DNA from: Bolinopsis microptera
Lineage: Eukaryota > Ctenophora > Tentaculata > Lobata > Bolinopsidae
Assembly: GCF_026151205.1 (NCBI RefSeq)
Contig: NC_087084.1
Span: forward strand, 6,009,538 to 6,069,537
Direction of reading: 5' to 3'
Length of the DNA: 60,000 nt
Both the position numbers and the translations under genes were made by a program. Within the stretch, counting starts at the first letter, position 1. Every line of letters starts with the position of its first letter. This document shows positions 1 through 46,217 of the stretch, piece by piece. The notes under the pieces are model-generated. The model did no database searches and was not told the origin of the DNA. It saw only the letters and a list, made by a program, of their open reading frames with translations.

Positions 1-200
1 TGATTTCTACCGTTAAATAAATTCCAATTTTAATCCGTACAAAATTACCTTCACACCATGTTTCCAGGGAGTTGCACCGACCCTCACGACCGCAGGAAAA
101 AGAGACGCTTCACACTTACTTTTGTGAGGGTACTGTGGGGACACCTTACGTCTGGTCCCTTGTAACTAGTGGCCTCACCACCTGGAGCAACAAGAAATGG

Positions 201-780
201 TGTTTTAGGTAGGAATGTGGTGTTTTAGGTAGGAATGTGGTGTTTTAGGTAGGAATGTGGTGTTTTAGGTAGGAATGTGGTGTTTTAGGTAGGAATGTGG
301 TGTTTTAGGTAGGAATGTGGTGTTTTAGGTAGGAATGTGGTGTTTTAGATAGGAATGTGGTGTTTTAGGTAGGAATGTGGTGTTTTAGGTAGGAATGTGG
401 TGTTTTAGGTAGGAATGTGGTGTTTTAGGTAGGAATGTGGTGTTTTAGGTAGGAATGTGGTGTTTTAGGTAGGAATGTGGTGTTTTAGGTAGGAATGTGG
501 TGTTTTAGGTAGGAATGTGGTGTTTTAGGTAGGAATGTGGTGTTTTAGGTAGGAATGTGGTGTTTTAGGTAGGAATGTGGTGTTTTAGGTAGGAATGTGG
601 TGTTTTAGGTAGGAATGTGGTGTTTTAGGTAGGAATGTGGTGTTTTAGGTAGGAATGTGGTGTTTTAGGTAGGAATGTGGTGTTTTAGGTAGGAATGTGG
701 TGTTTTAGGTAGGAATGTGGTGTTTTAGGTAGGAATGTGGTGTTTTAGATAGGAATGTGTTGTTTTAGATAGGAATGGGT
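201..780. repeat. 20-bp minisatellite, about 29 copies
   Basis: Perfectly phased tandem array of TGTTTTAGGTAGGAATGTGG, with only a few G-to-A changes (near 349) and divergence in the last two units. The homogeneity suggests recent expansion or active homogenisation. It lies upstream of the first exon I can support for the plus-strand gene and is probably intronic or 5' flanking. The 1-200 segment before it has no exon I can tie to the gene. Confidence 0.97.
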
Positions 781-971
781 TTACGAGGGACTGTGTTTAA
801 TTCAGTCAAAATAAACACATTATATGTTTACAAATTATAAACTAGAAAGCAAATTAAATGGTCTGAAAATTAAACAATAAAGCTCAAATGTACATGATAA
901 TAATGTAACTGATTTATGATCTTAATTAATTAATTGAATAATTAATCAATTAATCAAACCATATGTCCCAG

Positions 972-3900
972 CAAGGAGAACAAGCACGAATTACGTGTAA
1001 AACACAACATGGTTATAAGCGTGTCTGCTTTCAACTCTGCTCTCAAACATGCTATCCACAACTTTAACCTGGAGCCGGAAGTTGTATATCAAGAGGAGTT
1101 CATGGTTAGTTGAAGATTAAACTTAGCTTTAATCTGAGGAGATTGTTGAAACTTCTTAAAATATTCTCAAAGTTTCAAAGTTCATAAATGAAATTACAAA
1201 AATATCAACACCCGAAATTTCACTTTTATTCAGGACCACCTTCTCGTTTTTACAATTAAATAAATAATGAAATTATGGCAGGATGATATAATTAGTGTGG
1301 ACATCACAACTACAAGCGACCTTGCCTTTAACAAATTGTCTGATAAGCTGAAGACTTTGTTCAAAGAGGTCCACGCCAATTACAAACCTTATGCTCCATC
1401 AGGTGACTTGTTATCTTAAAATTGATGATTTCGTTTTTGTTGCAAGTGTTCGGCTAGAAAACAGCTAGGAGTATGAATTTTTAATGTAAAAATTGAATTA
1501 TTTTACAGCATTTTCTTGTCTTGATTCCTATTTTGTTATCAGACACATAGAATATAGATAAGAGTTTTGCAATATTATTTACTTAACAAGACGTGTATAA
1601 TCAAATCAACAACAAAAAACATAATGATGTAATCATTATGTATAGTAAGATCATCACAAATATTCATAAAAATATCTGAATAATTTAAATTGCACCCCAG
1701 ATAAGTTTCAACTACAGATGGAGGAGGTGGTAATGGCATTTGAGAACTTCAAGTGTCGAACCTACGACTACAGGGACTGCTTGAAAATACTGAAACTTTA
1801 CCAAGAGGTTTAATTAGTATCCCAATTTAGTACCGTAATTTATTATCCTAATATATAATTATCCTAATCATCACGTCCTCCCACATATCCTTTTATGATT
1901 GACTCTTTTCCACTATACTATTGCTGATTAGTGTATGCTTCAAGTGCAGGATTTTGGTTGATATTTCAAATTATTACAATGTCTCTTAAAATTACATCAT
2001 AATCATATTATATTTAAGAATTTTACAAAGTTCTCAAATTTTAATAGTGCTGGATTAACCCGTTTATTCCCCATTCTCAAAATGTGCACTGTTCCCCTCC
2101 CACTAACAACTAATTTTCAGGGATCAGCCCCGAAAACTCTATTCCATCTTTCTGCCGATCTACAAGGTAACTCCTAATTTACATTTTTCAGTCACATAAA
2201 AATGGTTATTATCTTATGACTCGTAATCAAAAATGTGTGCTGCTGTAAAATATGATGTGATGATAACTGATTAACTACAGACAAATTGGGTCTAATTAAC
2301 AATTATTATGTTATCAGATTTATTCATGACAGTAACTAGCACACCTGCTGTTCTGCTCGTCTACACTCCCAGTCACTACGATGAAACTCAGGTATAGTAT
2401 ATACACTGGTTACCATGACAACTACATTGGTTACCATGACAACTACACTGATTACCACGACAACTACACTGGTTACCATGACAACTACACTGGTTACCAT
2501 GACAACTACATTGGTTACCACGACAACTACATTGGTAACTACCATGACAACTACACTCGTTACCATGGCAACTACACTGGTTACCTTGACAACTACCCTG
2601 GTAACCAATACCATGACAACTACTCTAGTTACCATGGAAACTACACTGGTTACCTTGACAACTACCCTGGTAACCAATACCACGACAACTACTCTGGTTA
2701 CCATGACAACTTCACCCAGGAATTGTGTGTTTATCTGGATTCCTCCCTTGGACAAAGCACAATAGGAGAGTACTCAGTGGCTATGATGAGTGAAACTAAG
2801 CAATATAAAGCTGGGGTTTACTACATTCTCTATCCTAACAGTATAAAGGTTAGTTTTACTTAGTTTCAGTTATATTACATCAGAAATAAGTAGATTATTT
2901 TGTGTAAACCATCTCAGAAGTCTGATCATGTGAATAGTAAGTTTGGGTATAATTGAACATATTATTGAAATTTCAAATAATTTTGTAGCAATGGACCATT
3001 TTCGTTACCTGTGTATTGTGCTCTGCCAATTGCATAACTTGTTTTGATTGAATGTATCATTTTATAATTTATAAAACTGTAAATCATGCATGCATGTCTG
3101 ATATCAATAAATTATTAAAAAAAAACGTATGTCCTAAAAATCAAAATACCGATTTTTTTCTGCACGCCCCTTTACTTTCAACTAAGTACACGGTAAATTG
3201 GGGTTTCTCTATGCATTGTAAACTTACCTTGGCCTTTGTCTCAAATATGTAACCTCTATGCAACATTTGGTTTGTATTTACTATTACACACTGTATCATC
3301 TTGGGCGCAATTCTTGTGTAATCTTTGTAGTTTTCCTACATGTGCTATCGATTATAACTTTTACGGTCTAATCGCACCGCCTGTACCAGACTATGATAAG
3401 CCCGCTATCGTGACCTCTGCACCGTTTAGGTACCCTAATATATGTTAGATTGTTCGTTACTGCCATGTTAATTTTGTGTGGTAACATGGTTTCTGCGGTC
3501 TGCCGGATGATTGATATTGAAGGCTTAATAATAGGAAACTAATCGATTCCATTAATCGGTCACAGTTGTTCGAATAAATAACGGTAACGCGCGGTAACAA
3601 ATGTTTGAACAAAGTCAAATTTGTTATCCAATAAACCGCGCCGCGCGCACGGTACGCATTATTGTTCGTACAATTGACTGTCACCTCGTCCCTTATCCGA
3701 CGATCATATGAAATTTATAATTTGCTTTTCCTTGTTACACGAATTTCTAATACACATTTCTAATTTCTAATACTTATCAGAAAATTTGGGCATTTCCATC
3801 GCTGCTTGCTATAACAAATAGGTATGTGCCACACAATGCAACATACTTACTTAATTTCTCTGGCATTGTGCCATGTAAATTGAATATCTGACTACTTTCA

Positions 3901-4877: not shown

Positions 4878-7800
4878 TTAGAGCATTTTTGAGTCCTCTT
4901 CGTCGCCACTATGAAGCATGAAACTTTTCCTATTTGAAATAGAGGGTCTTTTATCCCTTGTTTCCAACTCAGTGGTTTCAACATTCCTTGTTAGAAATGA
5001 AGTCCTTGTTAGAAATGAAAGTCTATTAGTTCTTGCTTCAGTCACTATGTTGACATATCCTGAATTCCTTAGAAATACAGTTATATCTTTTATCTTTCTT
5101 TGGAAAAATTTTCTGAAAAAGTCATCGTAAATGAGAGGATTGGAGACGGAGTTAAAGGGTAGGACTGTCATTGCGAAGTAAACATACCATTTAGAAGCAT
5201 CGATAGCCTTCAGGTTGTGGAGGCCACTGATAACAATAAATGGTACCCAACACAGAAAATCTGTCACAATAATCATTGAAATTCTCTGCTGGAGCTTTTG
5301 GTTTTGTTTTAAAGTGTTTCGGTTGCGACCTTGCCCAACCTTCTTGGAGTATTTCCTCCGAGAGACGTTTAAGACTATATATGAAACTGTTATGATGATG
5401 AAACATATAAGGTTAACCGCAAGCATTAGCCACACTACCACATCTCCTTTACGATCTGTGATTCCAGCTCCAGTATCTGAATCCTGCCTGCTTCTCCGAG
5501 CATCGTCACTCCGAACAAAGTACTTGAACAAACAGACCCCGTCATTACCGTAAAAATGGACTGGGTATCTACTGAGAAGTCCATACTGATTGCTGAACAT
5601 TCCGTTCACTTTCTCTCCTATTTCCTTCCACGTTATTTCTGTAGTAATATTGCTTGTATTGTAGTAAGCCTGAAGAACCTTGACATGTTTCACTTTATTT
5701 GGAAAACCCAAGAACAGTTTATACTCTGGATCATAAAACATGGCCTGAACAAAGTAGTCCTCAAGGGAATGTATCAGAGGTGTTACAGCCACAGCTAGTG
5801 AAGCTAACGAGATCCCCAACACTAAAATACCAGCGTAAATACTTGGTTTCCTATCAAGGTGACTGTTAGGCAGAGTCATGGACCTCCGGAATATCCCAGC
5901 CATTCTGACCACACTCAAGGTAGTCATAGCGAACAGAGATACTTGTGAACCCACAGTACTTATAATCCCTAACACGGAGCAAGCGGTCCCGGTTAACCAC
6001 TCAGCTTGCTTCCCACAGTACTCATTTCCGAATATAATGCTGTCGTAGATAGACAACCCTATCAAGTATACACCGATAAGGAAATCACCACAACCTATCA
6101 GACCAACAAGTGCTTTATTGTACATAACGAGTGTACTGCTGGTTTTAGTTCTTAGCTCCAGAAGTGAGAGTATCTCCTTGTACACTGTCACTCCGTTCAG
6201 GAGAGCTGCTAAAATCCCCATAAACCAGCAAATAAACTTCAGTATCCAGTGATCAAGGATTTGCTTTCCACAAGTTAGATTACACTCGTCAGATAAATCA
6301 AAGCAGTCGTAGATACCATCACATTTCTGAGATAAAGATATGAGGTGTTCCTTGATACCGGGCTTATTCTCCGTGTTCTGGCACACCATATGGTTGGAAC
6401 AGTTCCGCTCGTCTGACATGTCCCCACAATCATCAACCAGGTCACAGACCTTGCTGTACTGAACACATCTGCTGTTCTCACATTGGAAGTAGTTGTTGTC
6501 GTATTGCCCGGTCTGATCCATTGTGACAAAGGTTAAGTACGTGTTGTTAGCGAGTGTGTAGATCCGGTCAGGGAACTGACCCGGACATGAAGCAGAGTTT
6601 AGGGGGGTATTTGGGAGAGGACAGGTTGAGTTTAAGCACAGGTCCATACAACTCAAGAACACGTAATACTCGCCAAACAGGCGGCTACAGTCAACTTTGG
6701 AGGTTGGGATTTTGAGTTTCGTGGTAACACCAAAAACATCACCAGATTTGAATTCCTTAATGTGGCACACCGCATCATCGGGTACTTCTTCTGATTTGCA
6801 TAAATCTCTCACTGAATTATTCCCCATCACCACCGTTGTGTTGATGTTTGGAAAATCTCGTGATGTGGTACACACCACATTTTCATTAGCGCAGGAATTC
6901 AGTCCGTCACACAAGTGATCAAACTCTACAAACCTCCCCTCCCCAGAACACATAAACACGTCCTGACACGTGTTATTTCCCAGTAAAACTCTATAAGTTC
7001 CCAGATCTCCTCTTCCACAGAACCTCCAGTGATCACTGTTCAGTTCATCTTCACCATTCGTACAATCAGTCTGATTATCCAATATCCACGAGACAGGTAT
7101 TTCTAGATGCTTCTCCAAATTGAAAGTCCGGGTACACTGAAAATACCCAGCTGTGGTCCGGCTACAAATATCACGTGACTCATCACTGCCATCAGTGCAG
7201 TCCCTCACCCCATCACACAGTTTGTGTTTGTGGACCACACATTCTGTTGTCTCTGACGGTGAGACACACTCACTGTCCAACCCATCATCACACAGATTAA
7301 CTGGACCGGTTATCAGGGCGCTGTCACAAACCACGTATTTAGATACAGTAGACATGAAACCGTTTATAAAGCAAAACCCACCCACTCTGGTGGGGTCCGT
7401 GCAGTTTGTTTGATCCTCAAAATGATAACAGTAAGGATACTGGTTAGTGTTAGTCAGATCAAATACACCGCACCTGGTGTAGTTTAGAATGGGAACGCTC
7501 CTGTTCATTCCAGCCATAGCTTTACGCCAGTAATGCAGACAAGTGGGTTGAATGGTGTTAGTGGTGTTGTTAGTGGTGTTGTTAGTGGTGTTGTTAATAA
7601 TACCACAGTCCCTTTCATCCTCATTGTAATAACAAGTCTCATTGTCACCCCACCCGTCGCATATCCAGGGTAGGGGCACATACCCTCCGGAGCAGTTCAC
7701 TCCGTACGAGTATCCGTTACAGTGACTCTCGTCTTCGCAGTGTGGTGAATCACACTTGTCGTCACACTCGGTGGATGTGTTACTGCCGGTAGTGATCCCG

Positions 7801-9788
7801 GCGACGCACTCCTGGTCACACTCCACGAAACGCACTTCTTCATTTGTGGTGCTGAAATATCCCCCACAGAGAAAAGTGGAGTTTGTTGTTATTTTGGTGG
7901 TGAACCCACATGCCTGGTAAACGTGTGGGTCACTGTTACACACAGTGGATACTGTGGAGAGCACGTGACTTTGAGTGGAACTGTCAAATACATCATCTTG
8001 TTCATAATAAACATTAGAATGAGCACACTTGTGATAGTACTGTCCAGTACTTTCATTGTAACACAAGTGCTTCAAGAATCCCCCAACATTAGTGATGGTA
8101 CAAGTTTTACTGTAGTCCCGACATTCCGGACAGGAACAATGGTCGGGGGTGTGCCCGCACATTCCATCAGCGCTACAACACGGATTATCTCCATCAGGGT
8201 CACACCCCAGAGACTTGAAGCCGGAGGTTGGATTGGGGTTCTGGACAGAAGTTTCCCCTGCGCACTTTTTGTCTTCTTTCCAATCTTTTGAGTTTTCCCC
8301 TGGTCAATAACATATGTATGAGGGAGAACAAAAAATGTCCGAACTAAAGTTGCACGAGACAATGATTTAAAGTAAAGCCAACAAGAGTTTCACTTCAAAA
8401 CATAATTGAGCAAAAACTTAATAAGCTTAATTAACTTAATTAACTCATACCTGTCTGATTGTAGCAACGGAGCCAAACACTATCCTTGTACTGACAGTTG
8501 TGTCGTGTGATCCTAGTGTCACACATAGATATGTCCGTGTCATTCTTCTTACAGCTTACAGCATCCATGATAAGTTGATTATAGAACCATGATCTGAGAA
8601 ATACTATGTATTTAAACCGTGGAATCTTGTGTTAAACCGTTTAAAAACAAATGTATGAATGTTCCAACACCAAAGTGATAAAAAGCAAGTTAAATTCACA
8701 TTGATATGCAACTTACTCGGGAACATATTCAATGTTTTTCGGAGAACTTCCCCATTTGGCAAAGAATTGTCCGAGAGAGCGACAAAACAGTTGAGCTGAA
8801 AGCCAGCTAAACCCGTCCTTACAAACAGTTCCATTCTTCTGCTCTCCGCTTCGCTTGTCAACAACCGTTACAATTAGAAGACCATCGCTTTTATTTTCTA
8901 TTTCCTTTCCGCTCACCATGTTGACAAGAGTTGCTCCATGGAATTTCCAAACATGCTCTGAAATAAATAGTCGTGTTATAAATTTGTAGTGGAAAATTCA
9001 CCATTCCAACATCAATGTGTAGTTTTCTCCTCCCATTTAACTGCAATGAATGACCAAGATTTTTCAAACTTACCGATGTAAAAGGAATCAGACGCTGTGT
9101 CATACTCATGTAAAAACGCTATCTTCGTAACATCTCGTGCCCAAAAAGTGTTCCAGTTATCAGTGTAGTCAGGATCATCACACGTTTCCAAGGAAACTGT
9201 CATATCCACAACCTGCTCGCCGTTACAATACAAAATGGTCCTATATCCTCGTTTTTCTATTGCCCATTTCTTATCTACTTCCACAGGTAGACCTATCAGA
9301 TTCGTGTAGCTTCCACAGCCTAACAGTGAATACTGTATAGTTGATGTGAACCAGATGCCAATACCTCCTGCCATCCTGCCTTCCTCGTTAAAATAGACAA
9401 TAAGGGTTTTCTCATCACTATCTGCAGTGCTGTTGGTTCTAAGGTGCAGGTAAGAAGTCTCCAGGTCAACATAGACGTCGTTGTCACGGACAACAGGATT
9501 CCACAACCCTGTTGATGCGTTTTTCAATAATCTTAATGAAGTATACATTTATAATTATCAGTAAGTTCTAAGTATGATTAGAAAGGTCAAGGAGTGTGTT
9601 GCAAAGAACGCCAAGTCTCTCATCCCTCCTAAAAAAGCAAAAACGAATAAAATGTTCAACAAACCTAATTGTGTTTCACTTTCATTGTCGGCAGTAATAT
9701 TTCCAGATTTTGACTGCTTTGAAGTCTGACTGTTTCCTTGTGGGCAAACAATCAGGAGAATAAGGAATGCTCCAGTCTGCAACTTCAT
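4878..9788 (-). CDS. FA-domain / SRCR / LDLa / LGR-type 7TM receptor
   Basis: Five exons join in phase: 9788-9665, 9508-9074, 8957-8717, 8593-8451 and 8299-4878, giving 1454 residues. Domains in order: signal peptide (starts MKLQTGAFLILLIVC); FA-methyltransferase-like domain at about 42-186 (ends DTASDSFYIG, an all-beta fold, not expected to be catalytic); SRCR domain at about 187-313 split over two exons (NGTVCKDGFSWLSAQLFCRS then WLRCYN); a Cys-rich linker; about six LDLa-like modules with CDGxxDCxDxSDE motifs; and a 7TM at about 998-1375. The 7TM has LGR/relaxin-receptor hallmarks: GCGDFLIGVYL in TM2, TDFLCWVPF in TM6 and NSVSNPLIYDDF in TM7. The DRY-equivalent is SVVRM, keeping only Arg. 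A short repeat near 7560-7600 encodes N-glycosylation sequons (NNTTNNTT). Relaxin receptors and GRL101 pair LDLa with leucine-rich repeats; none is visible here. The exon 2 acceptor is the least certain boundary. A signalling receptor is likely; the ligand is unknown. Confidence 0.85.
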
Positions 9789-14667: not shown

Positions 14668-15883
14668 ATGTCCTCCTCCCCCTCCCTAGTCTTCCTCCTC
14701 CTTCTCATCAGTCCTCCTCCTTCTCCTCCTAAGTCTTCCTCCTCCTGAGTCCTTCTCTTCCTGAGTCCTCTTCAGTCCTCTTCCTGACTCCTCGTCCTCC
14801 TCCTCCTCCTCCTCATCAGTCCTCATCCTCAGTCCTCCACTAGTCGTCCTCGTCCTTAGTCCTCTTCCTCTTCCTCCTCCTGAGTCCTCCTCCTCTGGAG
14901 TCCTCCTCCTCCTCCTCATCAGTCCTCCTCCTCCTCTTCAGTCCTCCTCCTGAGTTCTCCTCCTCATCCTCCTCCACCTCCTTAGTCCTCCTCCTGAGTC
15001 ATCCTCCTCTTCCTCCTCCTCAATCCCCCCTTATCCTCCTCCTCCTCCTTCTCCTCTTCCTTCTCCTCTTCCTTCTCCTCTTCCTTCTCCTCTTCCTTGT
15101 CCTCCTGATCAGTCCTCTTCCTTAGTCGTCCTCCTAGTCCTCGTCCTTAGTCCTCGTCCTCATCCTCCTCAGTCTTCCTCCTCAGTCCTTATCCTCCTCA
15201 TCAGTCTCCTAGCCTCCTCCTCGTCCTCCTCCCCAAGTCCTCCTCTTCCTCAGTCCTCCCCCAGTCCTCCTTCTCCTCCTCCTCATCCTCTTCAGTCCTC
15301 TTCCTCAGTCCTCATCTTCTTCCTCCTCAGTCCTCCTCCTCCTTCTCCTCCTCGTCAGTCCTCCTCCTCGTCAGTCCTCCTCCTCAGCCTCCTCCTCCTC
15401 CTCCTCCTTAGTCCTCATCCTCAGTCCTCCTCCTCCTCATCCTCCTCATCCTCCTCAGTCCTCTTCCTCAGTCCTCATCCTCTTCTTCCTCAGTCCTCCT
15501 CCTCCTCAGTCCCCAGTCCTCCTCCTACTCGTCAGTCCTCCTCCTCCTCATCCTCCTCCTCCTCCTCAGTCCTTCTCTTCCTCGTCAGTCCTCCTCCTCC
15601 TCCTCCTCAGTCCTCCTTCTCCTTCTCCTCCTACTCCTAAGTCCTCCTTCTCCTTCTCCTCCTTCTCCTCCTTTTCCTTCTTCTCCTCCTACTCCTCAGT
15701 CCTCCTCCTCCTCAGTCCTCCCCCAGTCCTCCTCCTCATCAGTCCTCCCCCAGTCCTCCTCCTCATCGGTCCTATCCCAGTCCTCCTTCTCCTCCTCCTC
15801 ATCCTCGGTCCTCCTCCTCCTCGTCCTTAGTCCTCCTCCTCCTCCTCCTCCCCGTCCTCAGTCCTCCTCCTCCTCCTCCTGAG
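14668..15883. repeat. CT-rich (polypyrimidine) degenerate tandem repeat
   Basis: Imperfect TCCTCC and CAGTCC units over about 1.2 kb, strictly pyrimidine-biased on the plus strand with interspersed AG. The Glu/Arg/Asp-rich ORFs on the minus strand are by-products of the repeat. It fills the left arm of the outer element. Such tracts can form triplex (H-DNA). Confidence 0.95.
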
Positions 15884-15979: not shown

Positions 15980-18093
15980 ATGCCATTTTATGCCATTGAA
16001 AACCTGAAAAATTTAGAATTTCGAGAAAAATTATTTAAAAAAAAGAAAGACACCACAGCCAAAACAGTGATCAACCTCTCTGGACAGACCCTCTCCACAG
16101 CTGAAACTGACGTCCTCTCCCTTGGACTGAAGTTCGTCCCGACACCCACCTCAGATCCCACCCCCGACCTGGCTCCCCTCATACAGAATATCACTAAACA
16201 ACTAGGAGAAGGCATGGAAGCCTCAGCCACATATTAGGTCACCTCTGTATTATCTAAATTTGACAATAAACGTGACATGACCACCGACAATTTGACTCCA
16301 CAACAACGTACCGCTCTTAAATCTTTAAAATCTAAGAAATCTGAATTGAAATTTCTTCCTGCTGATAAGGGCAACGCCACTGTTGTACTGACTCACGATC
16401 AATACATAACCAAAGTTACCGACCACTTATCCTCAGGTAGTTACACCCTCTTAACGAAAGACCCCACTCAATCCGTTACCACTAAACTACAGAAAGTCCT
16501 CAAGAAACTACACACCGACAAGAAGATCACGACCGACCTATACCACAAGATGCGCAACCTACATCCTAGATGGCCTCAACTTTACGGACAACCTAAGATA
16601 CACAAACCCGGCGCACCTATCCGTCCCGTAGTCAGCTTCTACAACACCCCCCTCCAAGCCCTCCACAAAGTCCTCGCATCTTTCCTCAAACCCCTAGCCC
16701 AGAACCCCTTACGCCTCAAAGACTCTTCCGACTTCAAACATCGCTTCGACTCCTCTCTCAATCCCTCCTTCCACTACCACGCCTCCTTAGACGTCCAATC
16801 CTTGTACACCTCCTGTGACATGCGCCTAGCCCTCAAAACTGTCATCTCCTCCTTTGAACAGAACCCCTCTCGTCTTCCCTCCAATGTCACCACCACCACC
16901 ATAGGCTCCCTTATCAACTTTTGCCTTGACAACTCATACCTTGAATTCAACGGCTCCTTCTACTCCCAAGACGAAGGTGGTACAATGGGATCCCCCTCAT
17001 TGTTGAACTAGCTGAAATCCGCCTTGCTGAAATCGAGACCTTAGCTTTATCCTCATGTCCTGACCCTCCGAACACTTACTCCCATTTCGTTGACGACGGC
17101 CTTGGATCTTTCAGAGACAGAAACCACGCAGAATCCTTCCTTACATTCCTTAACTCCCTTACTGAAGACCTCAACTTTACCCAAGAACATCCCTCTACAG
17201 ACGGAACTATACCCTTCCTTGACGTTCTCATCCACCCTGACAAATCCACATCAGTCTACAGAAAACCCACCCACACCAACCTCTACACCAAGTACTCCTC
17301 CTGCACCACCAACTCATCTAAGAACGCAGTCATCCGATCACTGACCAGAAGAGCCCACAACATCTGCTCACCCCAACACCTTGACGACGAACTCCAGACA
17401 GTACGACACGTTTGCCTCCAGAACGGCTTCCCTCCTCACCGCATCACCACCATCATGGACGAAGTACAACGGAAATTCACCAACCCCTCTCGCCACCAAT
17501 CCCTAGCCTCATTCAACCGACAGACCCGTGAACATGCCCTTAGTGTTTCTCATCCTTTCCATCCCTCCCTATCCAAACCCATCTCCAAGATACTCGGACA
17601 ACACGACATCAAAGTCACCCACTCCTCTGCTACCTCCCTCCGCAACCTCCTCACCAAAACGAAGACCACACCCCCTACTCACCTCACTCCCAACACCATC
17701 TACGAAATTTCCTGCTCACAGTGCCCCTCCAAATACGCCGGACAGACCTACAGACCCTTGGTCCACCGCATGAAAGAACACGAACGATGTTACAGACTCA
17801 ACAACGCCATCGACGAATCCACAGACAGAATCAAATCAGCCCCTGCACATCATGCCCTGACCACCGGCCACACTATCTCCTGGAACAGTATCGAAGTCCT
17901 CAAATCCCTCACCTCACGCTCCCAACTTGACCTCACAGAACACGCAGCTATACAAATACGACAACCAGCTATGAACAGAACAGACCGCGCACCCAAATGT
18001 AGTTCGCTCTGGGACCCCATTCTTCCTAAAATTGCCAAATCCTTAAAGTCCAGACCATCTGGCATTTCCTTCTCAACCTCAACAGAAGACTAA
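15980..18093 (+). pseudogene. Penelope-like retroelement: reverse transcriptase plus GIY-YIG, broken
   Basis: The N-terminal block NLSGQTLSTAETDVLSLGLK (before 16237) is typical of Penelope-like elements. An in-frame TAG at 16235-16237 interrupts it, and the same frame resumes to 17011 with the PADKG motif, YGQPKIHKPGAPIRPVVS and the MGSP block. At about 16990-17000 a small deletion in the MGSP block shifts the frame. The rest reads to 18093 and includes the catalytic HFVDDG and a C-terminal GIY-YIG endonuclease (YEISCSQCPSKYAGQTYRPL). Two inactivating lesions make this a dead copy of a canonical RT-then-GIY-YIG element. GC content is higher than in flanking DNA. Confidence 0.9.
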
Positions 18094-19560: not shown

Positions 19561-19947
19561 GACTGTCGAGGATGTAGGTCTCACTTCTCAGTGCCTATTA
19601 CTCTCCCCTATTACTCACTCCTGCTGTAGCCTAGCCTGTAGAAATAACTTTACACTAGGCTTCAGTAATTATGAGTTTGCCTGAAGTGTGCCTCTACTAA
19701 CCTAGTATAAGCATCTAGTAGCCTACTATGAGCTTTCATAAGCTTGTTACGCCCCTAGTAAGCGTAAATAAACATGTTAGGATGTCCAATTTAGGTGTTA
19801 AATGGTGTTAAAGATGAAATTTCGAAGACAAAATTCATGGCATAAAATGGAGAAAATGGAGAATTACTCATGGGTTTTTCCATTTTCTCCATAGAAAAAG
19901 TCTCCATTTTATGCCATTTTATGCCATTGGCCCCCCCCCCTCCTGAG

Positions 19948-22672
19948 TCCTCCTCCTCCTCATCAGTCCTCCTCCTCCTCTTCAGTCCTCCTCCTGAGTC
20001 CTCCTCCTCATCCTCCTCCACCTCCTGAGTCCTCCTCCTGAGTCATCCTCCTCCTCCTCCTGAGTCCTCCTCCTCCTCATCAGTCCTCCTCCTCCTCTTC
20101 AGTCCTCCTCCTGAGTCCTCCTCCTCATCCTCCTTCACCTCCTGAGTCCTCCTCCTGAGTCATCCTCCTCCTCCTCCTCCTCATTCTCCTCCTTATCCTC
20201 CTCCTCAGTCCTCCTTCTCCTCTTCATTAGCCCTTGTCCCCATCCTCCTAGTCCTCGTCCTTAGTCCTCGTTCTCATCCTCCTCAGTCTTCCTCCTCAGT
20301 CCTTATCCTCCTCATCAGTCTCCTAGCCTCCTCCTCGTCCTCCTCCCCAAGTCCTCCTCTTCCTCAGTCCTCCCCCAGTCCTTCTTCTCCTCCTTCTCAT
20401 CCTCTTCAGTCCTCTTCCTCAGTCCTCATCTTCTTCCTCCTCAGTCCTCCTCCTCCTCAGTCCCCAGTCCTCCTCCTACTCGTCAGTCTTCCTCCTCCTC
20501 CTTATCCTCAGTCATCCTCCTCCTCCTCGGTCCTTCTCCTCCTCGTCAGTCCTCCTCCTCCTCCTCGTCAGTCTTCTTTCTCCTTCTCCTTCTTCTCCTC
20601 CTACTCCTAAGTCATCCTCCTCCTCCTCAGTCCTCCCCCAGTCCTCCTCCTCATCAGTCCTCCCCCAGTCCTCCTTCTCCTCCTCCTCATCCTCAGTCCT
20701 CCTTCTCCTCCTCCTCATCCTCAGTCCTCCTCCTCCTCAGTCCTCCCCAAGTCCTCCTCTTCCTCAGTCCTCCCCCAGTCCTCCTTCTCCTCCTGATCCT
20801 CAGTCCTCCTCCTCAGTCCTCGTCCTCGTCCTCCTTCTCGTTTTCTTCCTCCTCCTCACCAATCCTGCTCCTCTTCCTCAGTCCTCCCTCTCCTCTTCAG
20901 TCCTCCTTCTCCTCCTCCTCATCCTCTTCAGTCCTCTTCCTCAGTCCTCATCTTCTTCCTCCTCAGTCCTCCTCCTCCTCAGTCCCCAGTCCTCCTCCTA
21001 CTCGTCAGTCTTCCTCCTCCTCCTACTCGTCAGTCTTCCTCCTCCTCCTTCTCCTCAGTCATCCTCCTCCTCCTCGGTCCTTCTCCTCCTCGTCAGTCCT
21101 CCTCCTCCTCCTCGTCAGTCTTCTTTCTCCTTCTCCTTCTTCTCCTCCTACTCCTAAGTCATCCTCCTCCTCCTCAGTCCTCCCCCAGTCCTCCTCCTCA
21201 TCAGTCCTCCCCCAGTCCTCCTTCTCCTCCTCCTCATCCTCAGTCCTCCTTCTCCTCCTCCTCATCCTCAGTCCTCCTCCTCCTCAGTCCTCCCCAAGTC
21301 CTCCTCTTCCTCAGTCCTCCCCCAGTCCTCCTTCTCCTCCTGATCCTCAGTCCTCCTCCTCAGTCCTCGTCCTCGTCCTCCTTCTCGTTTTCTTCCTCCT
21401 CCTCACCAATCCTGCTCCTCTTCCTCAGTCCTCCCTCTCCTCTTCAGTCCTCCTTCTCCTCCTCCTCATCCTCTTCAGTCCTCTTCCTCAGTCCTCATCT
21501 TCTTCCTCCTCAGTCCTCCTCCTCCTCAGTCCCCAGTCCTCCTCCTACTCGTCAGTCTTCCTCCTCCTCCTTCTCCTCAGTCATCCTCCTCCTCCTCGGT
21601 CCTTCTCCTCCTCGTCAGTCCTCCTCCTCCTCCTCGTCAGTCTTCTTTCTCCTTCTCCTTCTTCTCCTCCTACTCCTAAGTCATCCTCCTCCTCCTCAGT
21701 CCTCCCCCAGTCCTCCTCCTCATCAGTCCTCCCCCAGTCCTCCTTCTCCTCCTCCTCATCCTCAGTCCTCCTTCTCCTCCTCCTCATCCTCAGTCCTCCT
21801 CCTCCTCAGTCCTCCCCAAGTCCTCCTCTTCCTCAGTCCTCCCCCAGTCCTCCTTCTCCTCCTGATCCTCAGTCCTCCTCCTCAGTCCTCGTCCTCGTCC
21901 TCCTTCTCGTTTTCTTCCTCCTCCTCACCAATCCTGCTCCTCTTCCTCAGTCCTCCCTCTCCTCTTCAGTCCTCCTCCTCCTCAGTCCTCCTCGGTCCTT
22001 CTCCTCCTCCTCAGTCCTCCCCAGTCCTCCTCTTTCTCATCAGTCTTCCTCCTTCTCCTTCTCCTCCTCAGTTCTCCTCCTCATCCTCCTCCTCCTTCTC
22101 CTCTTCCTTCTGCTCCTAATCAGTCCTCCTCCTCAGTCGTCCTCCTCCTCGTCCTTAGTCCTCGTCCTCATCCTCATCGTCCTTAGTCTTCGTCCTCATC
22201 CTCTTAGTCCTCGTCCTCATCCTCCTAGTCCTCGTCCTGGTCCTCCTCAGTCTTCCTCCCCTGTCCTCCTCAGTCCTCCCCCAGTCCTCCTTCTCCTCAT
22301 CTTCAGTCTTCCTTCTCCTCCTCCTTCTCCTCCTAATCAGTCCTCCTCCTCAGTCCTCGTCCTCGCTCTCGTCTTCGTCCTTAGTCGTCCTCGTCCTTAG
22401 CCCTCGCGTCCTCTTAGTCCTCCTCCTCCCCGTCCTCAGTACTCCTCTTCCTCCTCCTCCTCACCAATCCTGCTCCTCTTCGTCAGTCCTCCCTCTCCTC
22501 TTCAGTCCTCCTCCTCCTCAGTCCTCCTCGTCCTCCTCAGTCCTCTTCGGTCCTTCTCCTCCTCGTCAATCCTCCCCAGTCCTCCTCCTCATCAGTCTTC
22601 CTCCTCCTCCTCCTCCTCCTCCTCCTCCTCAATCCTCCTCGTCTTCAGTCCTCCTCCTCCTCCTCATCAGTT
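19948..22672. repeat. CT-rich array with a 522-547-bp higher-order unit
   Basis: The same polypyrimidine composition as 14668-15883. Within it, a long block recurs at 20512, 21059 and 21581 (offsets 547 and 522; the difference is an extra 25-bp subunit). This shows higher-order amplification. It is the right arm of the outer G-run-terminated element. Confidence 0.95.
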
Positions 22673-30779: not shown

Positions 30780-33643
30780 ACGATTTTGTTACAATTAATT
30801 TTTTACAATTATTTGAACACAGAATACACAGTTAGATAGATATTGAGCTTATAATCGTAGAGAATGTGTAGTTTAGGCTTACCCTTTATATAAAGTTGGT
30901 TTCATTCAAAAATATTGATATTTAACCAATTTATGGGCCAAAATCGATCGAATTTGGTGCGTATGCCCAAATATGGTCATATAGTTTTTAGCTCATAACT
31001 CAATAGGTTTTGGGCATGTTCAGGGTATTTGGCTAAATTGGGCCTAATTTGGACCAAATATGGGCGTGGCTGCCCCGCGAACACTGTTTGGCGGTTGGGG
31101 TTCGGGACCCCCTCAAAAGTTCGGTCACCGGTCCTAGTTTGTTGGTCACAATTTGGGATCAAGCAGAATCTCGGGAATTTTATTGTAACATCTTCCTGTT
31201 ATCTGGTGATAATTCATAATTAGTGCTCTTCTGGAAAACTATTTAGTCTTTAAGTTTGTATATATAATAGTGATAAAAACATATACACGCAAACAATTTA
31301 TTAACAAAATATAGTTAATCAGTCTTATCTGAAGCTTACATCATGAATTCTTTTTTCAAATTAACTTCACCACTTTTGGTGACATCATCGTAATTTGGTG
31401 GTGGGAGGTTTGCTCCTCCAGTCGCCGAGTTGTCATATGCAGTAGATATCCCAGCTCCAACGTTTGCGTTGGGTGGGTAGGTACCACCGGTTGCAGGTGA
31501 TGGGTTGGTACCTCCGGCAGTGGGTGTGACATCATCGTAACTTGGTGGTGGAAGGTTTGTTCCTCCAGTCGCTGAGTGGTCATATGGGATTTTAGATATC
31601 CCAGCTCCAACAGTTGCAAGTGATGAGTAGGTACCTTCGGTTGCAGGTGGTGGGTTGGTACCTCCGGTTGCAGGTGGTGGGTAGTTACCACCGGTTGCAG
31701 GTGGTGGGTAGTTACCTCCGGTTGCAGGTGATGAGTAGGTGCGTCCGGTTGCAGGTGGTGGGTTGGTACGTCCGGTTGTAGGTGGTGGGTTGGAACCGTC
31801 CGGTTGCAGCTGGTGGGTTAAAACGTCCGATTGCAGGTGATGGGTAAGTACCACCGGTTGCATGTGGTGGGTAGGTACCACCGAATGAAGGTTGTGGGTA
31901 GGTACTTCCTCTTTCAGGTGGTGGGTAGTTACTACCGGTTGCAGGTGGTGGGTAATTACCACCGGTTGCAGGTGGTGGGTAATTACCACCGGTTGCAGGT
32001 GGTGGGTAGGTACCACCGGTTGCAGGTGGTGGGTAGGTACCACCGGTTGCAGGTAGTGGGTAGGTACCACCGGTTGCAGGTGGTGGGTAGGTACCTCCGG
32101 TTGCAGGTGGTGGGGAAATCATTCTACCACTCTGACTGTATTTTCCACAACGTTTGTAACAACAGCAGCAGCAGATACATAAGAAGATGACCAGTGGCAC
32201 ACCAAAGAAAGTCCCGAAAACGATTATCCCTTCAATGTTAACGCATGATTTATAACTGCATGAACCATCATCATTAAACTCATTATATCTGGTTAATCTG
32301 GTTAATTTGAACAATCTGTCGTACATGCATCCAAAAGTAATATTCATCCTTTCGTAAATACAACCATCTGCAACATTGTACTCTGCTTCAATAAGGTCGT
32401 ATATTTGACACTGTTCTGCAGCGGAACACATGTTGTAAATTGACGTTGTAACGTTTTTAATGTCTTTACCTGAATTGATAATTGATTGAGCTCGGAGTAT
32501 GATTCTAATTTTAGGGAAAGATTATAAAGATTTGCACATTAAACAACAAGAATTGCGCCCGTTGTTTTGTTTTGGCGGACGCTAGATTTCCATTCACTAT
32601 AACTATAAGTATAAGCTCTAATCAGCTCACTTTATAGTAATAATGTTGATAGATTATGCTTTAAATACGGGAAACACTTGAAATTCAATTCAATTGCCGT
32701 AGAACTTAACTTGCATCTGTGATTTAAAAAAATTGTATGCAAAAGTAAACTATACTCATGTTTTTATACAACACCAGCCATTGAAAAGTTTGATGATGTC
32801 TTATAATAACACTAGGGTTAAAGTCCCTACCACTGATTTAGATGTCGGAGGGGACCGGATTGATGACTCTCTCACCCTAAAACTCCCTAGGAGAGGGGTG
32901 ACAGATGATATGCCGGCTCCTTCACCCGGCACAAAAAATAACATAAAACAACAAAAAAAGGATGGGGATGCATTGGTTTCTTGTAGTGAGGTAGCTCTAG
33001 TAGGGACATTTAATGTCCGAACTGCTAGAGAAGGTTACAAGCGCCTTGTACTCGTGACTCAGTTTCTGGAGAGTGGCATGGAGATCCTTGGGATCCAAGA
33101 ACATAGGATTGTCCACCAGGAGCCGATCAAGATCGAAAAGTTCAAAGAGGGGGTTAGCTTGGTAACTGTTTCAGCATGGAGGAATGGAGCAGGAGCAGCC
33201 ACTGGTGGAGTGGGCTTTCTGCTGACTAGAAGAGCATACAGCGCAATCAGCCTCATTAAACCCTATGGCTCAAGGGTGCTGACTATCTCTTTCAACGGAA
33301 ATCCCAGACTCACAACTATAACTGCCTATAGTCCTACCGAGGCAGCACTAGTTGAAGAAGCGGAGGATTTTCATAACACCCTTAGACAGGCTATGAATGA
33401 TGTGCCAGCGCACCACCTGCTGATCACAGAGGGAGATATGAACGCCCGGCTTGGAAAGGAGAGTGAAGAAGATTCCCGTTGGTACTTTCATACTCGTACC
33501 AATCGGAATGGAGAGCTACTGAGAGACACTGCCCTGGAGTGCGATATGGAAATTACCAATATCCGCTTCAGAAAGAAGGTCAACAAGAGGTGGACCTTCT
33601 TATCTGATGGGACACTTAACAAAGGTCAGATTGACTATATCCT

Positions 33644-34733
33644 GGTTCACGTACTGTAGTGCGACACGTACTCTAGTGCGACACGTACCCTAGTGCGAAA
33701 CCTCCAAGATCGACACTGTCGCACTAGAGTACGCTACCTGGATCGTAGTGCGACACGTACCCTAGTGCGACAGAAAATTTTCAAGGCCGACACTGTCGCA
33801 CTACAGTGCGCTACTTGGACTGTAGTGCGACACGAACTAAAGTGCGATATTTTAAAGTTTTAATGACAAGAGTGTCATCTGAAAGTACTTCCGTACTGCT
33901 GAGGTCTCTGCGTTGTATTCCGGGACTAGGTCATGTTGCTGCATCTTCCTCAAAAATGCTTGCTTGTGGTGGAAGAAGCATCCTCTCTTGGTGGTAGTGG
34001 GCCAGGTTGTCTCCACAGCGTTTATCAGGGCTCTCTCGCAGTCACTCATGACAGATTGAGGGTCGACTCCAAATGCAAGAGGCTCATCCAAGAGGGCTTC
34101 ATAATGAGCCTGTGTCTTTCCGGGGAGTAAGCCGAATGCAAGGGGAATTCAGTGCATCGCCAGTAGGTCTTGTCGTCGCGCTTCTTATTCAGGCAGTAGC
34201 GGTATCCGTCGTGGATAACGTTTCTTGAACCAGTAGTTTGTCGAGAAATGAAGATGATTGAAGAAGACATGTTGATGTTGTTCGATGCTTTGGTAGAATC
34301 ATCGTGACCTTATATATGGCCCAAGCATATGAACTTGTTATCCCAATCGGAGATATACGATGCGTGTAATAGGAAAGAGGATCATTATATGCTGCTTACG
34401 AGTTACCCGGTGGATCACACACTGCATACGTGGCTTGAACTGACCCGAAGGAATTATGATCAGTGGATCACTTCGAAACACGTGATGTGAACCGACGAAT
34501 CGTATTCGCAAGATCACTTCAAAATAAGTGACGTGAACCGACCCGACAAATCCATAAAAAGGATAGGATGTGACCTGAACTTGGAAATAAGTCAGGATAT
34601 TTTGTCGCACTAGAGTACGCTACCTGGATCGTAGTGCGACACGTACTGTAGTGCGACAGAGGGTGTTTTTGTCGGACTTCGCACTAGAGTACGTGTCGCA
34701 CTAGAGTACGTGTCGCACTACAGTACGATTACC
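33644..34733 (-). mobile_element. MULE deletion derivative, 1090 bp, 9-bp TSD
   Basis: CTATATCCT flanks it exactly (33635-33643 and 34734-34742), the 9-bp duplication typical of Mutator-like elements. Ends are inverted (GGTTCACGTACTGTAGTGCG against GGTAATCGTACTGTAGTGCG) and the match continues about 50 bp. Both subterminal regions are packed with GTGCGACACGTAC-type units in both orientations. The interior encodes a FLYWCH-like domain and part of a MULE transposase on the minus strand. It lies inside the LINE reading frame; removing it leaves that frame open. Confidence 0.93.
33852..34270 (-). pseudogene. FLYWCH-plus-MULE transposase remnant
   Basis: From 34270 leftward: a FLYWCH-type start (NVIHDGYRYCLNKKRDDKTY then WRCTEF) is followed, in another frame from about 34140, by the MULE core GLLPGKTQAHYEALLDEPLA and DPQSVMSDCERALINAVETT with GCFFHHKQAFLRKMQ. 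The intervening transposase region with the first catalytic Asp is missing, so an internal deletion fused the two ends out of frame. Not functional. Confidence 0.85.
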
Positions 34734-37700
34734 CTATATCCTCATACGGCGGAAGTGGAAAAACTCATTAAAGAACACTGAAGTTTACAACACTTTTCAG
34801 TCGTTGGGATCTGATCACAGAGTTGTAGTGTGTAAGATCAAAGTTAGCTTTAGGAAAGGACACAGGCCTCCGAAAAAAGTTAACTATGATTATAGTGCCC
34901 TGAAATCGGATGGTGAGCTTCAAAAAAAGTATGCAATTGAAGTTCGGAATAGATTCTCTTGCCTGGTAGAGGAGGATGATGGGGCCACTGAAAGCTACGG
35001 GAAGCTTATGGTTGCTATTGAGGCGGCAAACAAGAGCCTTCTGCCAAAGAAGACTCGACAAAAGCAGATTGACCCCTCAAGTGACCCAAGAGTGGATAGT
35101 GCAAGGAGGGGACTGTTCTTGGCCAAGGACCAATACCATCAGGAGCCTTGTGAGGAGAAGAGAGAGGAAGTCGCCACTAAAAAGGATTTGTTAAAGGCCT
35201 GCTACAAAGAGGTAGAGGAGGAGATCCTGAAAGGAAAGATCAGGAAAGTTGAGGATACTGCTGATCGTTGTAAGAACAAGGAAAGCTGGAAGCTTGTCAA
35301 CGATATTTCAGGGAGGACAAATCCCAGCTGTGGACTCGTGGAAGGGGGCAGCTCAACAGAACGTCTTGAGAACTGGAGGAAGCACTTCTCTGGGTTACTT
35401 GGACAGCCACCCACAGTCCCTGACAATAGTATTCCGATCAGGAATATACACCCTCCACTGAATATAGAGGATGGCCCGTTCACCATTGAGGAACTACGTC
35501 TTGCCAAAAAGCAGATAGTAGAAGGCAAAGCTTATGGTGATGATGGTATCTCACCTGAAGTGATGAAGAGGGTGGACATCGATGACGTCATCCTGAAGTT
35601 CTGCAACGATGCATTATGTGATGGTCTCATGCCCGATCAATGGAAGCTCAGTAATATTGTTCCTGTGCCAAAGAAAGGGGACCTCACTAAGACCGACAAC
35701 TACAGAGGAATATCTCTGACATCGATAGTCAGTAAAACTCTGAACAAAATGTTGCTGAACAGGATGAAGCCAAGTCTTGAGGAAGTTTTAAGGGACAACC
35801 AGAATGGCTTTAGACCTGGGCGCTCTACAACATCACACATCCTTGCTCTACGAAGAATTATGGAGGGTGCTAGAGCCAAAAATCTTAAGGCCACCATGGT
35901 CTTCATTGATTTCAAAAAGGCGTTCGATAGTGTGCATAGAGGTTTGCTCATGAAGATATTGAAAGCATATGGCATACCAGAAGCCATAGTGCGGCTCATT
36001 GAGGGTATCTATACGAGCACAAAGGCTAAAGTAGTTACAGCCGATGGTATAACAGAAATTTTTGATATCCTGGCTGGAGTACTGCAAGGAGACACTCTTG
36101 CCCCGTACTTGTTCATTATCGTGATTGACTATATCATGACAGTATCTATAGACGATGATGACTCGGACTCTGGGTTTACTCTCAGGCCTGCACGGAGTAG
36201 AAGGATTGGTGCCGAGAAGATCGCAGACGTCGAGTTTGCAGATGATGTTGCCCTTATCACTGATACCATTGAAGGGGCAAAACTACTCCTGGACAGGCTT
36301 GAGAAAGCTGCACTGAGTGTTGGGCTAGCCATGAACGGCTCTAAAACTAAGTTCATGACTCTGCACATGACAGAGGAGGCGAGTAGTCTTAATAGCTGTT
36401 CTGGAAACCAGCTGGAAAAGGTGACAGACTTTGTTTACCTTGGAGCTTGGATAGCAACAACAGAGAGGGACCTGCGGGTCAGAAAAGCTAAGGCTTGGGC
36501 AGCCTGCCACAAGCTAAAGAAGATGTGGAAGTCTGACCTTAGAAGAGGACTAAAGATCCGTCTATTTGTTGCTACTGTGGAGTCAATACTTCTTTATGGT
36601 TCTGAAACGTGGACGTTGACAGAGCAATTGAAGAAACGCATTGATGGCTGCTACACTATAATGCTAAGGATGGCACTTAATGTGGATTGGAAGCAGCGAA
36701 AAACCAACAAAGAAGTCTATGGCAACCTACCGAGAGCAACCATGAAGATCCAAGAGCGCAGGATGCGATTAGCAGGCCATATCCACCGGCACCCAGATCT
36801 AGTCGTAAACCGCTTGCTACTCTGGGAACCAACTCATGGGGTGCGGAGTAGGGGGAGACCAGCCATGACCTATGTTGATAGCCTACGAGCTGACACGGGT
36901 CTCAACGACACTGGAGAAATGGGCGGACTTATGGCGGATAGAGTTTTATGGAGACAGCGCATCAATACTCGGACGCTGAAGCCGCCTTAAGTCAAGTCAG
37001 TAAGTCAAGTACATTACGCGTGCCACGTACAAATTGGGCTTATTACCTTAGAATACTATACATTACATAGTATATACAATATACATTAAAATACACTGGC
37101 GCCGCGCATTCATTGACCACAGGCTAGCTATGGTCAATGAATGGCTAAAAAATCACACACAGGATTTCGTAACTCGGTTACATTAATTTAAAAATGTTAA
37201 TATTAACTTACCAGAGCATTCGGGAGTAAGATCGAAGAGCAGAGCTTCAAATATGTGGATCTTCGTTTCAGGTTTGCACCTGATCGATAATTGTTCATTT
37301 TTGTCGAACTCAAACTGAGCCAGGTGGAGTTCTGAAACAGGTTGAAATTCATCAATCGGGCAGAGATGCTCCAAAAACGAGTTCTTAAGGATGCCGTGGG
37401 TCTAATATTATCTAATCAAAAATTATTAGATAATTACGTATCTGCAGGGTAATCAAAACACATGATTGAACGAAACAACGAATAATTTATAAATACAATA
37501 AGAAATAAATGTAAAGGTTTTCAGACGAACCTTGTCCTCTTGCTTTGCTTTGACATTCCCGATACACATCAGTTGAAAAGTTAACATTAATCAGGACGCT
37601 TGAATTCTCCCATCCAAACGTTGTGCTGTTCTGTTTGTAGCATCCGGTGTATGTCGTACTCTTCTTCGGATCAGCTGATTCTGATAGTATCATGTGACAT

Positions 37701-42171: not shown

Positions 42172-42431
42172 CTAATGAGTGTATGTAATGAGTGTATGTA
42201 ATGAGTGTATGTAATGAGTGTATGTAATGAGTGTATGTAATGCGTGTATGTAATGAGTGTATGTAATGAGTGTATGTAATGAGTGTATGTAATGAGTGTA
42301 TGTAATGAGTGTATGTAATGAGTGTATGTAATGAGTGTATGTAATGAGTGTATGTAATGAGTGTATGTAATGAGTGTATGTAATGAGTGTATGTAATGAG
42401 TGTATGTAATGAGTGTACGTAATGAGTGTAT
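42172..42431. repeat. 13-bp minisatellite GAGTGTATGTAAT (array 1, left part)
   Basis: About 20 near-perfect units. The array is cut by the 2.2-kb element and resumes at 44660-44722. Since 13 x 3 = 39, the repeat reads as a 13-residue periodic peptide (SLHTLITYTHYIH) on the minus strand; not a real protein. Confidence 0.97.
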
Positions 42432-45656: not shown

Positions 45657-46217
45657 CTAATGAGTGTATATAATGAGTGTATGTAATGAGTGTATGTAAT
45701 GAGTGTATGTAATGAGTGTATGTAATGAGTGTATGTAATGAGTGTATGTAATGAGTGTATGTAATGGGTGTATGTAATGAGTGTATGTAATGAGTGTATG
45801 TAATGGGTGTATGTAATGGGTGTATGTAATGAGTGTATGTAATGAGTGTATGTAATGAATGTATGTAATGGGTGTATGTAATGGGTGTATGTAATGAGTG
45901 TATGTAATGAGTGTATGTAATGAGTGTATGTAATGAGTGTATGTAATGAGTGTATGTAATGAGTGTATGTAATGAGTGTATGTAATGAGTATATGTAATG
46001 AGTGTATGTAATGAGTGTATGTAATGAGTGTATGTAATGAGTGTATGTAATGAGTGTATGTAATGAGTGTATGTAATGAGTTTATGTAATGAGTGTATGT
46101 AATGAGTGTATGTAATGAGTGTATGTAATGAGTGTATGTAATGAGTGTATGTAATGGGTTTATGTAATGGGTGTATGTAATGGGTGTATGTAATGGGTGT
46201 ATGTAATGAGTGTATTA
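45657..46217. repeat. 13-bp minisatellite (array 2, left part)
   Basis: About 43 units of GAGTGTATGTAAT and the variant GGGTGTATGTAAT. Interrupted at 46218 by a reverse-transcriptase element and continuing at 48960. Confidence 0.97.

Follow-up and report, generated by a model that had tools for sequence, protein, structure and literature searches.

A predicted comb-jelly receptor that joins SRCR, hevein-like and LDLa modules to an LGR-type seven-transmembrane core lacking detectable leucine-rich repeats

LDLa modules on leucine-rich repeat-containing G-protein-coupled receptors (LGRs), SRCR domains on adhesion-type G-protein-coupled receptors (GPCRs) and a large LGR set in Trichoplax are already known. 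Signalling by the type C receptors RXFP1 and RXFP2 requires the LDLa module, a possible tethered ligand (PMC4561518; papers are cited here by PubMed Central identifier and for excerpts of their text). GRL101, or type C2 LGR, joins multiple LDLa modules and leucine-rich repeats to an LGR-type seven-transmembrane (7TM) core, with one ortholog per ambulacrarian species studied (PMC8286064), while the cnidarian and placozoan receptors Nvec-LGR4 and Tadh-LGR-5 have a type-C core to which an LDL domain and extra modules (CUB, fibronectin II) are attached (PMC9545775). Here we describe a predicted gene on the minus strand of a 60,000 bp stretch of the Bolinopsis microptera genome (assembly GCF_026151205.1, contig NC_087084.1; the whole stretch is hereafter called the window). 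Its product consists, from the N-terminus, of an unnamed domain, an SRCR domain, a hevein-like module, an array of LDLa and other cysteine-rich modules and an LGR-type 7TM, the array and 7TM being encoded in one conserved exon.

Like RXFP1 and RXFP2, the window receptor combines an LGR-type 7TM with LDLa modules in a long ectodomain; it differs in lacking leucine-rich repeats, in carrying several LDLa modules, of which a pair adjoins the membrane, in its SRCR, hevein-like and unnamed domains, and in having no acidic residue before R3.50. It resembles GRL101 in its multiple LDLa modules, but no repeats were found in it and its family occupies at least 222 places in the genome. Nvec-LGR4 and Tadh-LGR-5 are likewise described with leucine-rich repeats, and the excerpts of PMC9545775 mention neither an SRCR nor a hevein-like domain in them. 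Amphioxus and sponge adhesion GPCRs also place SRCR before the 7TM (PMC2246102; PMC4302439), but those are of adhesion type, whereas the window 7TM is of rhodopsin/LGR type and the model has no GPS match at E<=1. Among ctenophores, Mnemiopsis has a large set of SRCR proteins with unusual combinations including LDL; an SRCR-7TM protein is not mentioned in the excerpts of that paper (PMC11797021). A literature search returned no report of LDLa-bearing LGRs that lack leucine-rich repeats and carry SRCR and hevein-like modules, nor of a ctenophore family of SRCR-LGRs or of LDLa-LGRs without leucine-rich repeats, the present one included, most subscription papers, figures and supplements lying outside that search. 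Judging from sequence comparison, we think it probable that the gene encodes a surface-recognition GPCR built on a relaxin/glycoprotein-hormone-receptor-like 7TM without leucine-rich repeats, in which distal modules would bind variable ligands and the proximal LDLa modules would drive the G-protein core.

The gene model comprises five exons between positions 9788 and 4878 of the window, whose frame of 1454 aa has a single terminal stop and GT..AG introns (Table 1). Intron phases are 1, 1, 2 and 1 from 5′ to 3′ with all junctions in phase, exons 1-4 are free of stops, and the last intron, between exons 4 and 5, is 151 bases long. The exon-1/2 junction is the least certain, with seven in-frame splice choices and an exon-1 donor that is off consensus; the choice 9665/9508 was retained and yields the 1454 aa. 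By eye, exon 5 has no signal peptide of its own. Five phase-consistent exons had been proposed in the initial annotation, and the predicted model bears this out.

In a Pfam scan of the full model at E<=1, a check that had been suggested beforehand, the SRCR domain (PF00530, 36.7 bits, curated cut-off 26.1), LDLa (38.2 bits, cut-off 24.1) and 7tm_1 (37.6 bits, cut-off 30.5) assigned earlier all scored above their cut-offs, and nothing beyond these three families was matched, including GPS/GAIN or the 7tm_2 domain of adhesion GPCRs. The absence of leucine-rich repeats, also claimed at the outset, held both for the model (none at E<=1) and for 16 ectodomains, those of the window gene and 15 paralogues (none at E<=0.1). 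LDLa was found by Pfam in all 16 ectodomains. The two membrane-proximal LDLa modules, which adjoin the first transmembrane segment (TM1), are rich in invariant residues, and the distal parts of the ectodomain vary. The one label that failed was that of exon 2, which the initial annotation had called an FA-methyltransferase-like domain (Methyltransf_FA, PF12248). We rejected this label: at E<=1 PF12248 matched neither the model, nor exon 2 alone, nor any of 13 exon-2 sequences (window gene and 12 paralogues). A genome search with PF12248 was also empty, as were its controls, so that this search cannot be counted as absence. Three of the 13 sequences gave a weak Laminin_G_3 match (best E 0.025), an exon-2 profile had no match among solved structures (best E 0.87), and a single-sequence AlphaFold model of exon 2 was poor (pLDDT 37.4), with strands only and no helix. 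With neither PF12248 nor a solved structure matching it, we treat exon 2 as an unnamed domain. The initial observation is thereby partly confirmed at the level of the predicted protein, with one label wrong.

Missing from the earlier description was a hevein-like (chitin-binding type 1) module in the large exon. Its score against Pfam Chitin_bind_1 (PF00187; E 0.0016, 19.1 bits) lies under the curated cut-off of 27.8; in the same scan the corresponding stretches of paralogues gave E 0.0049 (L014, three stretches), 0.32 (L016) and 4.2 (L012), and the stretch from L011 gave no Chitin_bind_1 match. Against the PDB, the window module alone matched the N-terminal part of peptidoglycan recognition protein 3 (PGRP3) at E 0.0024, the module of L014 did so at E 2.6e-10, and a seven-row profile of the window gene and six paralogues reached E 6.2e-16 (PDB 4zxm, 4z8i), its only further match being a small toxin peptide at E 0.056. 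We take the PGRP3 of these entries to be an amphioxus protein, and the matched part is presumably its chitin-binding domain. On these profile matches the module is clearly homologous to that of PGRP3 despite the sub-threshold Pfam score. The two proteins have this module in common; PGRP3 is otherwise a PGRP-domain protein without a 7TM, whereas the window model has no PGRP domain (Pfam, E<=1).

The assignment of the 7TM to the LGR type, made in the initial annotation, was upheld by comparison with solved structures. An 18-row profile (window gene and 17 paralogues, 7tm_1 being found in all 18) ranked TSHR, RXFP1, LHCGR and FSHR on top, followed by 8w1z (family-1 GPCR, 4e-10) and, from 2.5e-8 onwards, by other class A receptors. 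The window 7TM alone placed RXFP1 first but the family profile TSHR; by these ranks a place in the type C clade is possible, and the tree described below contains no outside LGRs. All 18 sequences retain R3.50, NPxxY, the Asp of TM2, the Asp and Trp of TM6 and the disulphide cysteines of TM3 and extracellular loop 2, the positions being named from an alignment with class A motifs. An AlphaFold model of the 7TM was poor (pLDDT 47.2).

Table 1. Features of the predicted receptor gene (coordinates are window positions).
Feature	Position	Strand	Basis or remark
Exon 1: start codon and signal-peptide-like segment	9665..9788	-	Gene model; signal peptide by eye
Exon 2: unnamed extracellular domain, ~145 aa	9074..9508	-	Not PF12248; homologues in seven young paralogues under diversifying selection
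Exon 3: SRCR domain, first part	8717..8957	-	Pfam PF00530, residues 226-310
Exon 4: SRCR domain, second part	8451..8593	-	Pfam SRCR
Exon 5: one large exon encoding the hevein-like module, the LDLa array and the whole 7TM; ends TAA	4878..8299	-	
Hevein-like (chitin-binding type 1) module, residues 325-374	8121..8270	-	Pfam and PGRP3 match
LDLa and LDLa-like modules separated by novel cysteine-rich stretches	6282..7766	-	Limits by eye
Two membrane-proximal LDLa modules, rich in invariant residues	6282..6491	-	Ectodomain alignment
LGR-type 7TM core	5094..6284	-	Structure-profile ranks, 7tm_1, alignment
Extracellular loop 2, conserved part, including the presumed partner cysteine of TM3	5502..5561	-	Alignment

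The gene belongs to a large family. The assembly searched has 232 contigs totalling 264,652,675 bases, and in it the window is C13:6009538-6069537; the contigs C1-C13 make up 258,070,895 bases (97.5%), C14-C16 are each below 0.2 Mb, and everything after C13 adds up to 6.6 Mb. An exon-5 query gave at least 46 matches in at least 41 loci (the best 41 of 782 candidates being scored). With a query spanning TM1-TM3, all of the best 150 of 429 candidates scored were matches, down to 44% identity and E 2.7e-27, and queries from two distant copies found at least 150 places each. The union of the three TM1-TM3 searches comes to at least 222 distinct places on C1-C16, including all 13 large contigs; this is a count of places and not of intact genes, because some have stops or short frames and one, L034 (C7:9729300-9733150), is a truncated copy, so that the family is likely to include pseudogenes. 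The open frame of L013 runs into Ns in the assembly, and the 2802-aa open frame at C4:9409174, which was rejected as a giant gene, enters a stretch of N.

The exon order of the window gene recurs among its paralogues. Exons 2-3-4-5 stand in order at 14 of 20 fetched loci, which is not a frequency, since most loci (all of the first ten) were picked for an adjoining exon-2 match; no exon 2 was found in the other six (L011, L012, L014, L015, L016 and L020). Intron phases in the 14 ordered loci agree at 13 exon-2/3, 14 exon-3/4 and 11 exon-4/5 junctions, the last being poorly scored by the phase script. In some near loci another SRCR (and exon-4-like) unit lies further outward. The alignments used the window gene with 12 (exon 2), 15 (ectodomain) and 17 (7TM) of the 20 loci. 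Each of nine loci picked for distance has an exon-5 match of 31-41% identity, which in L023 starts only at residue 344 and in L025 is broken into two pieces; exon 2 was found in none of them and an SRCR profile match in two. The exon-2 domain itself is common in the genome, with at least 151 matches (the best 150 of 325 candidates being scored). Upstream and on the same strand of the 41 best exon-5 places, the window included, a listed exon-2 match lay within 5 kb in 13 cases, within 12 kb in 18 and within 16 kb in 19; this count drew on a subset of the 150 listed exon-2 places, the others lying far from the 41 by eye. At two further loci, L039 and L040, the exon-2 domain stands in tandem beside what by eye are Sushi-like and cysteine-rich repeats, and no 7TM was seen in the 6-7.5 kb read at each. 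The domain seems to be an unnamed extracellular module that is widely used in this genome.

Evidence that the outermost part of these receptors diversifies came from seven young paralogues: L003, L004, L005 and L010 on C10, L006 on C5, L007 on C12 and L009 on C16. Ratios of non-synonymous to synonymous substitution (dN/dS; Nei-Gojobori, own code) for exon 2 ranged from 1.05 to 3.16 and exceeded 1 in 15 of 15 pairs from six loci, and in 10 of 10 pairs when L007 was left out. The SRCR exon 3 gave 0.50-2.33 in 14 of 15 pairs, one being undefined, while the ectodomain array (0.37-0.86) and the 7TM (0.08-0.41) were below 1 in all 21 pairs. L004 has no exon-2 pairs, its exon 2 matching in two overlapping pieces; L007, which may be damaged because its exon 3 matches in two frames, has no SRCR pairs; and neither has an intron-2/3 comparison. 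Exon-2 dN also exceeded the divergence of intron 2/3 (0.019-0.158) and of intron 3/4 in 10 of 10 pairs each, and that of intron 4/5 in all six comparable pairs. In codon models a single exon-2 ratio of 2.12 gave a log-likelihood of -1525.51, against -1531.74 with the ratio fixed at 1, and the step from model M1a (-1513.28) to M2a (-1476.79) placed 22.6% of codons at a ratio of 7.7; for the 7TM the ratio was 0.226, with -2230.82 under M1a and -2230.76 under M2a. The exon-2 signal survived restriction to 124 gap-free columns, replacement of the tree by an arbitrary one and use of the tree of exon 2 itself (-1325.50 to -1293.33). Array columns 150-300 were also positive (-1285.89 to -1255.62) and columns 0-150 weakly so (-1200.12 to -1192.64), and three proximal array stretches showed no positive-selection signal under M1a/M2a in the six loci. 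In these young paralogues, then, diversifying selection acts on the outermost domain and on one distal stretch of the array, and the proximal array and the 7TM are constrained.

How the present architecture arose was considered on a midpoint-rooted tree of 30 7TM sequences, on which the exon-2 label requires two changes. The window gene pairs with L011 (support 100/99), and then with L012, L014 and L020 (99/95). The first branch of a 21-row clade, as drawn, is L015, the fork above it having support of only 82/77. L015 has SRCR exons ahead of its hevein-containing exon (first part independent E-value (iE) 7.4e-06, second weak, 0.013), and the SRCR-to-hevein-exon junction joins a phase-1 donor to a phase-1 acceptor as in the window gene, the acceptor being assigned by eye. 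Because this deeper branch shares SRCR ahead of the hevein exon in the same phase, the order SRCR-hevein-array-7TM is plausibly ancestral, in which case several of the compared genes would have lost SRCR or the window gene would have regained it. Ahead of its SRCR exons L015 has, at positions 185-3022 of the locus, five repeated modules of about 115-140 aa that look Ig-like by eye; three of the five were scanned and had no Pfam match at E<=0.01.

Several observations weigh against reading the window gene as a diversifying recognition receptor. It lies outside the group of 14 exon-2-bearing sequences on the tree, its nearest relatives L011, L012, L014 and L020 having no detected exon 2, and a search of some 14 kb upstream in L011, L016 and L020 gave only chance-level exon-2/SRCR matches (best iE 0.5); given such relatives, exons 1-4 may have been shuffled in or, less likely, misjoined. 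For over half of the 41 best exon-5 places no exon-2 match is listed within 12 kb. The codon models were run with our own code on six loci, and the window gene is not one of the seven selected paralogues. The SRCR exon 3 gave no clear positive selection (M1a -520.80, M2a -519.23). No ratio exceeded 1 in a C4 pair (exon-2 copies 0.53 and 0.40, array 0.43, 7TM 0.18), in a C7 cluster without exon 2 (N-terminus 0.79; array 0.39, 0.33 and, proximally, 0.14; 7TM 0.26; the truncated L034 omitted) or in four older relatives (exon 2 0.48-0.84, 7TM 0.13-0.25). Exchange between copies is likely, because exon 2 and the array favour different trees. Finally, the residue before R3.50 is acidic in none of the 18 7TM sequences (I in 15, V in 2, T in 1), so that canonical coupling is not to be assumed; in class A receptors loss of the acidic residue at 3.49 points to altered or constitutive activity, and by analogy its absence suggests the same for this family. 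In every set the 7TM evolves more slowly than the outer parts, though in the C4 pair exon 2 is near the array. Positive selection, as estimated from codon changes, was demonstrable in one paralogue set only, with the window gene outside it.

One rival reading is an artefact of the model, in which exons 1-4 are part of a neighbouring gene or of a dead fragment, with the receptor starting in or near exon 5 as in its nearest 7TM relatives. The lack of detected exon 2 or SRCR in those relatives and the off-consensus exon-1 donor speak for such an artefact. Set against it are junctions that are all in phase, a last intron of 151 bases and four stop-free exons, 14 paralogues alike in exon order and with conserved intron phases, the place of SRCR before the hevein-bearing exon of L015 in the same junction phase, and the want of a signal peptide in exon 5 (by eye). 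A misjoin of this kind is possible but less likely, and we consider the artefact as a whole improbable. A peptide-hormone receptor of relaxin-like or GRL101-like kind, with the LDLa array binding an internal peptide or protein hormone and the N-terminal modules accessory, has in its favour a 7TM nearest RXFP1 and the glycoprotein-hormone receptors, the many LDLa modules that GRL101 joins to the same type of core (PMC8286064) and the lineage-specific expansion to 46 LGRs in Trichoplax (PMC9545775). It must contend with the absence of leucine-rich repeats, which are the ligand-binding part of LGRs, with at least 222 places, more than would be expected of hormone receptors, and with the diversifying selection estimated for the outer domain of one paralogue set. 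Such selection on an outer domain is unusual for hormone receptors, and we regard this explanation as unlikely, if somewhat less so than an artefact.

A chemosensory repertoire is a far stronger contender, being a narrower form of the surface-recognition reading that overlaps with it: a comb-jelly counterpart of odorant receptors, its copies tuned to cues from prey, predators or conspecifics and not to immunity. The size of the family and its spread over all 13 large contigs speak for this, as does a variable outer domain on a conserved core in one paralogue set, and the hevein-like module could bind crustacean chitin. Comb jellies respond to chemical cues, with scant knowledge at the level of cells (PMC5868061), and ctenophore-specific GPCR radiations with copy-number change among Mnemiopsis species have been described (PMC13231562); these may be the same genes as the window family, the excerpts naming no domains. 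Pulling the other way, SRCR is often tied to immunity (PMC4302439), the hevein-like module is linked to a peptidoglycan recognition protein, and 12 Mnemiopsis SRCR genes changed upon re-exposure to Vibrio, 8 of them up, a 7TM linkage not being stated in the excerpts (PMC11797021). We give a purely chemosensory role somewhat less than an even chance; prey or mate chemoreception fits the same data as microbial recognition.

The broader surface-recognition reading, which remains our preferred one, was already suggested in the initial annotation and gains strength from the hevein-like module and from the diversifying selection on the outer domain in seven young paralogues. The receptor would be a two-part device, with a variable sensor outside and an LDLa-7TM switch inside. 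Distal modules would bind variable external ligands, either glycans or proteins, presented by microbes, prey or conspecifics; binding would shift the membrane-proximal LDLa modules, and these, once repositioned, would activate the 7TM as LDLa is thought to do in RXFP1. The activated core would then signal through a G protein, a coupling expected from the receptor family.

Elsewhere in the window, further exon-2-type domain matches occur on the minus strand at 54492-54133 (iE 2.5e-16) and 53412-53275 (iE 2e-06), and a Sushi repeat above the Pfam cut-off lies near this second exon-2-type domain (51605-51276, minus strand); that these exon-2-type domains and the repeat form one second gene (51276-54510, minus strand) is a guess. 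Long, imperfect low-complexity arrays of TCC type, strongly strand-skewed, cover 14671-15880 and 19939-22666, and three separate long tandem arrays (42173-42432, 45658-46215 and 48961-50731) seem to be built from one 13-base unit, TAATGAGTGTATG, in this or a rotated form. Long open frames at 32703-36987 (plus strand), 46671-48956 (minus) and 16238-18090 (plus) look by eye like pieces of mobile elements.

More tentatively, these comparisons may point to a ctenophore repertoire of at least 222 loci, perhaps several hundred, in which an LGR core without leucine-rich repeats carries swapped outer modules (the unnamed domain, SRCR, the hevein/PGRP3 type and others) on a fixed LDLa-7TM engine, with positive selection on the outermost domain: a possible counterpart, in a candidate sister lineage of the other animals, of odorant or Toll-like receptors. 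The family is a candidate for how comb jellies sense microbes, prey or each other, and its pairing of immunity-type recognition modules with a hormone-receptor-type core offers concrete genes for expression and ligand tests. If the surface-recognition reading is right, the LDLa-7TM part of relaxin-type receptors may be able to work without leucine-rich repeats, which would bear on how those receptors are activated.

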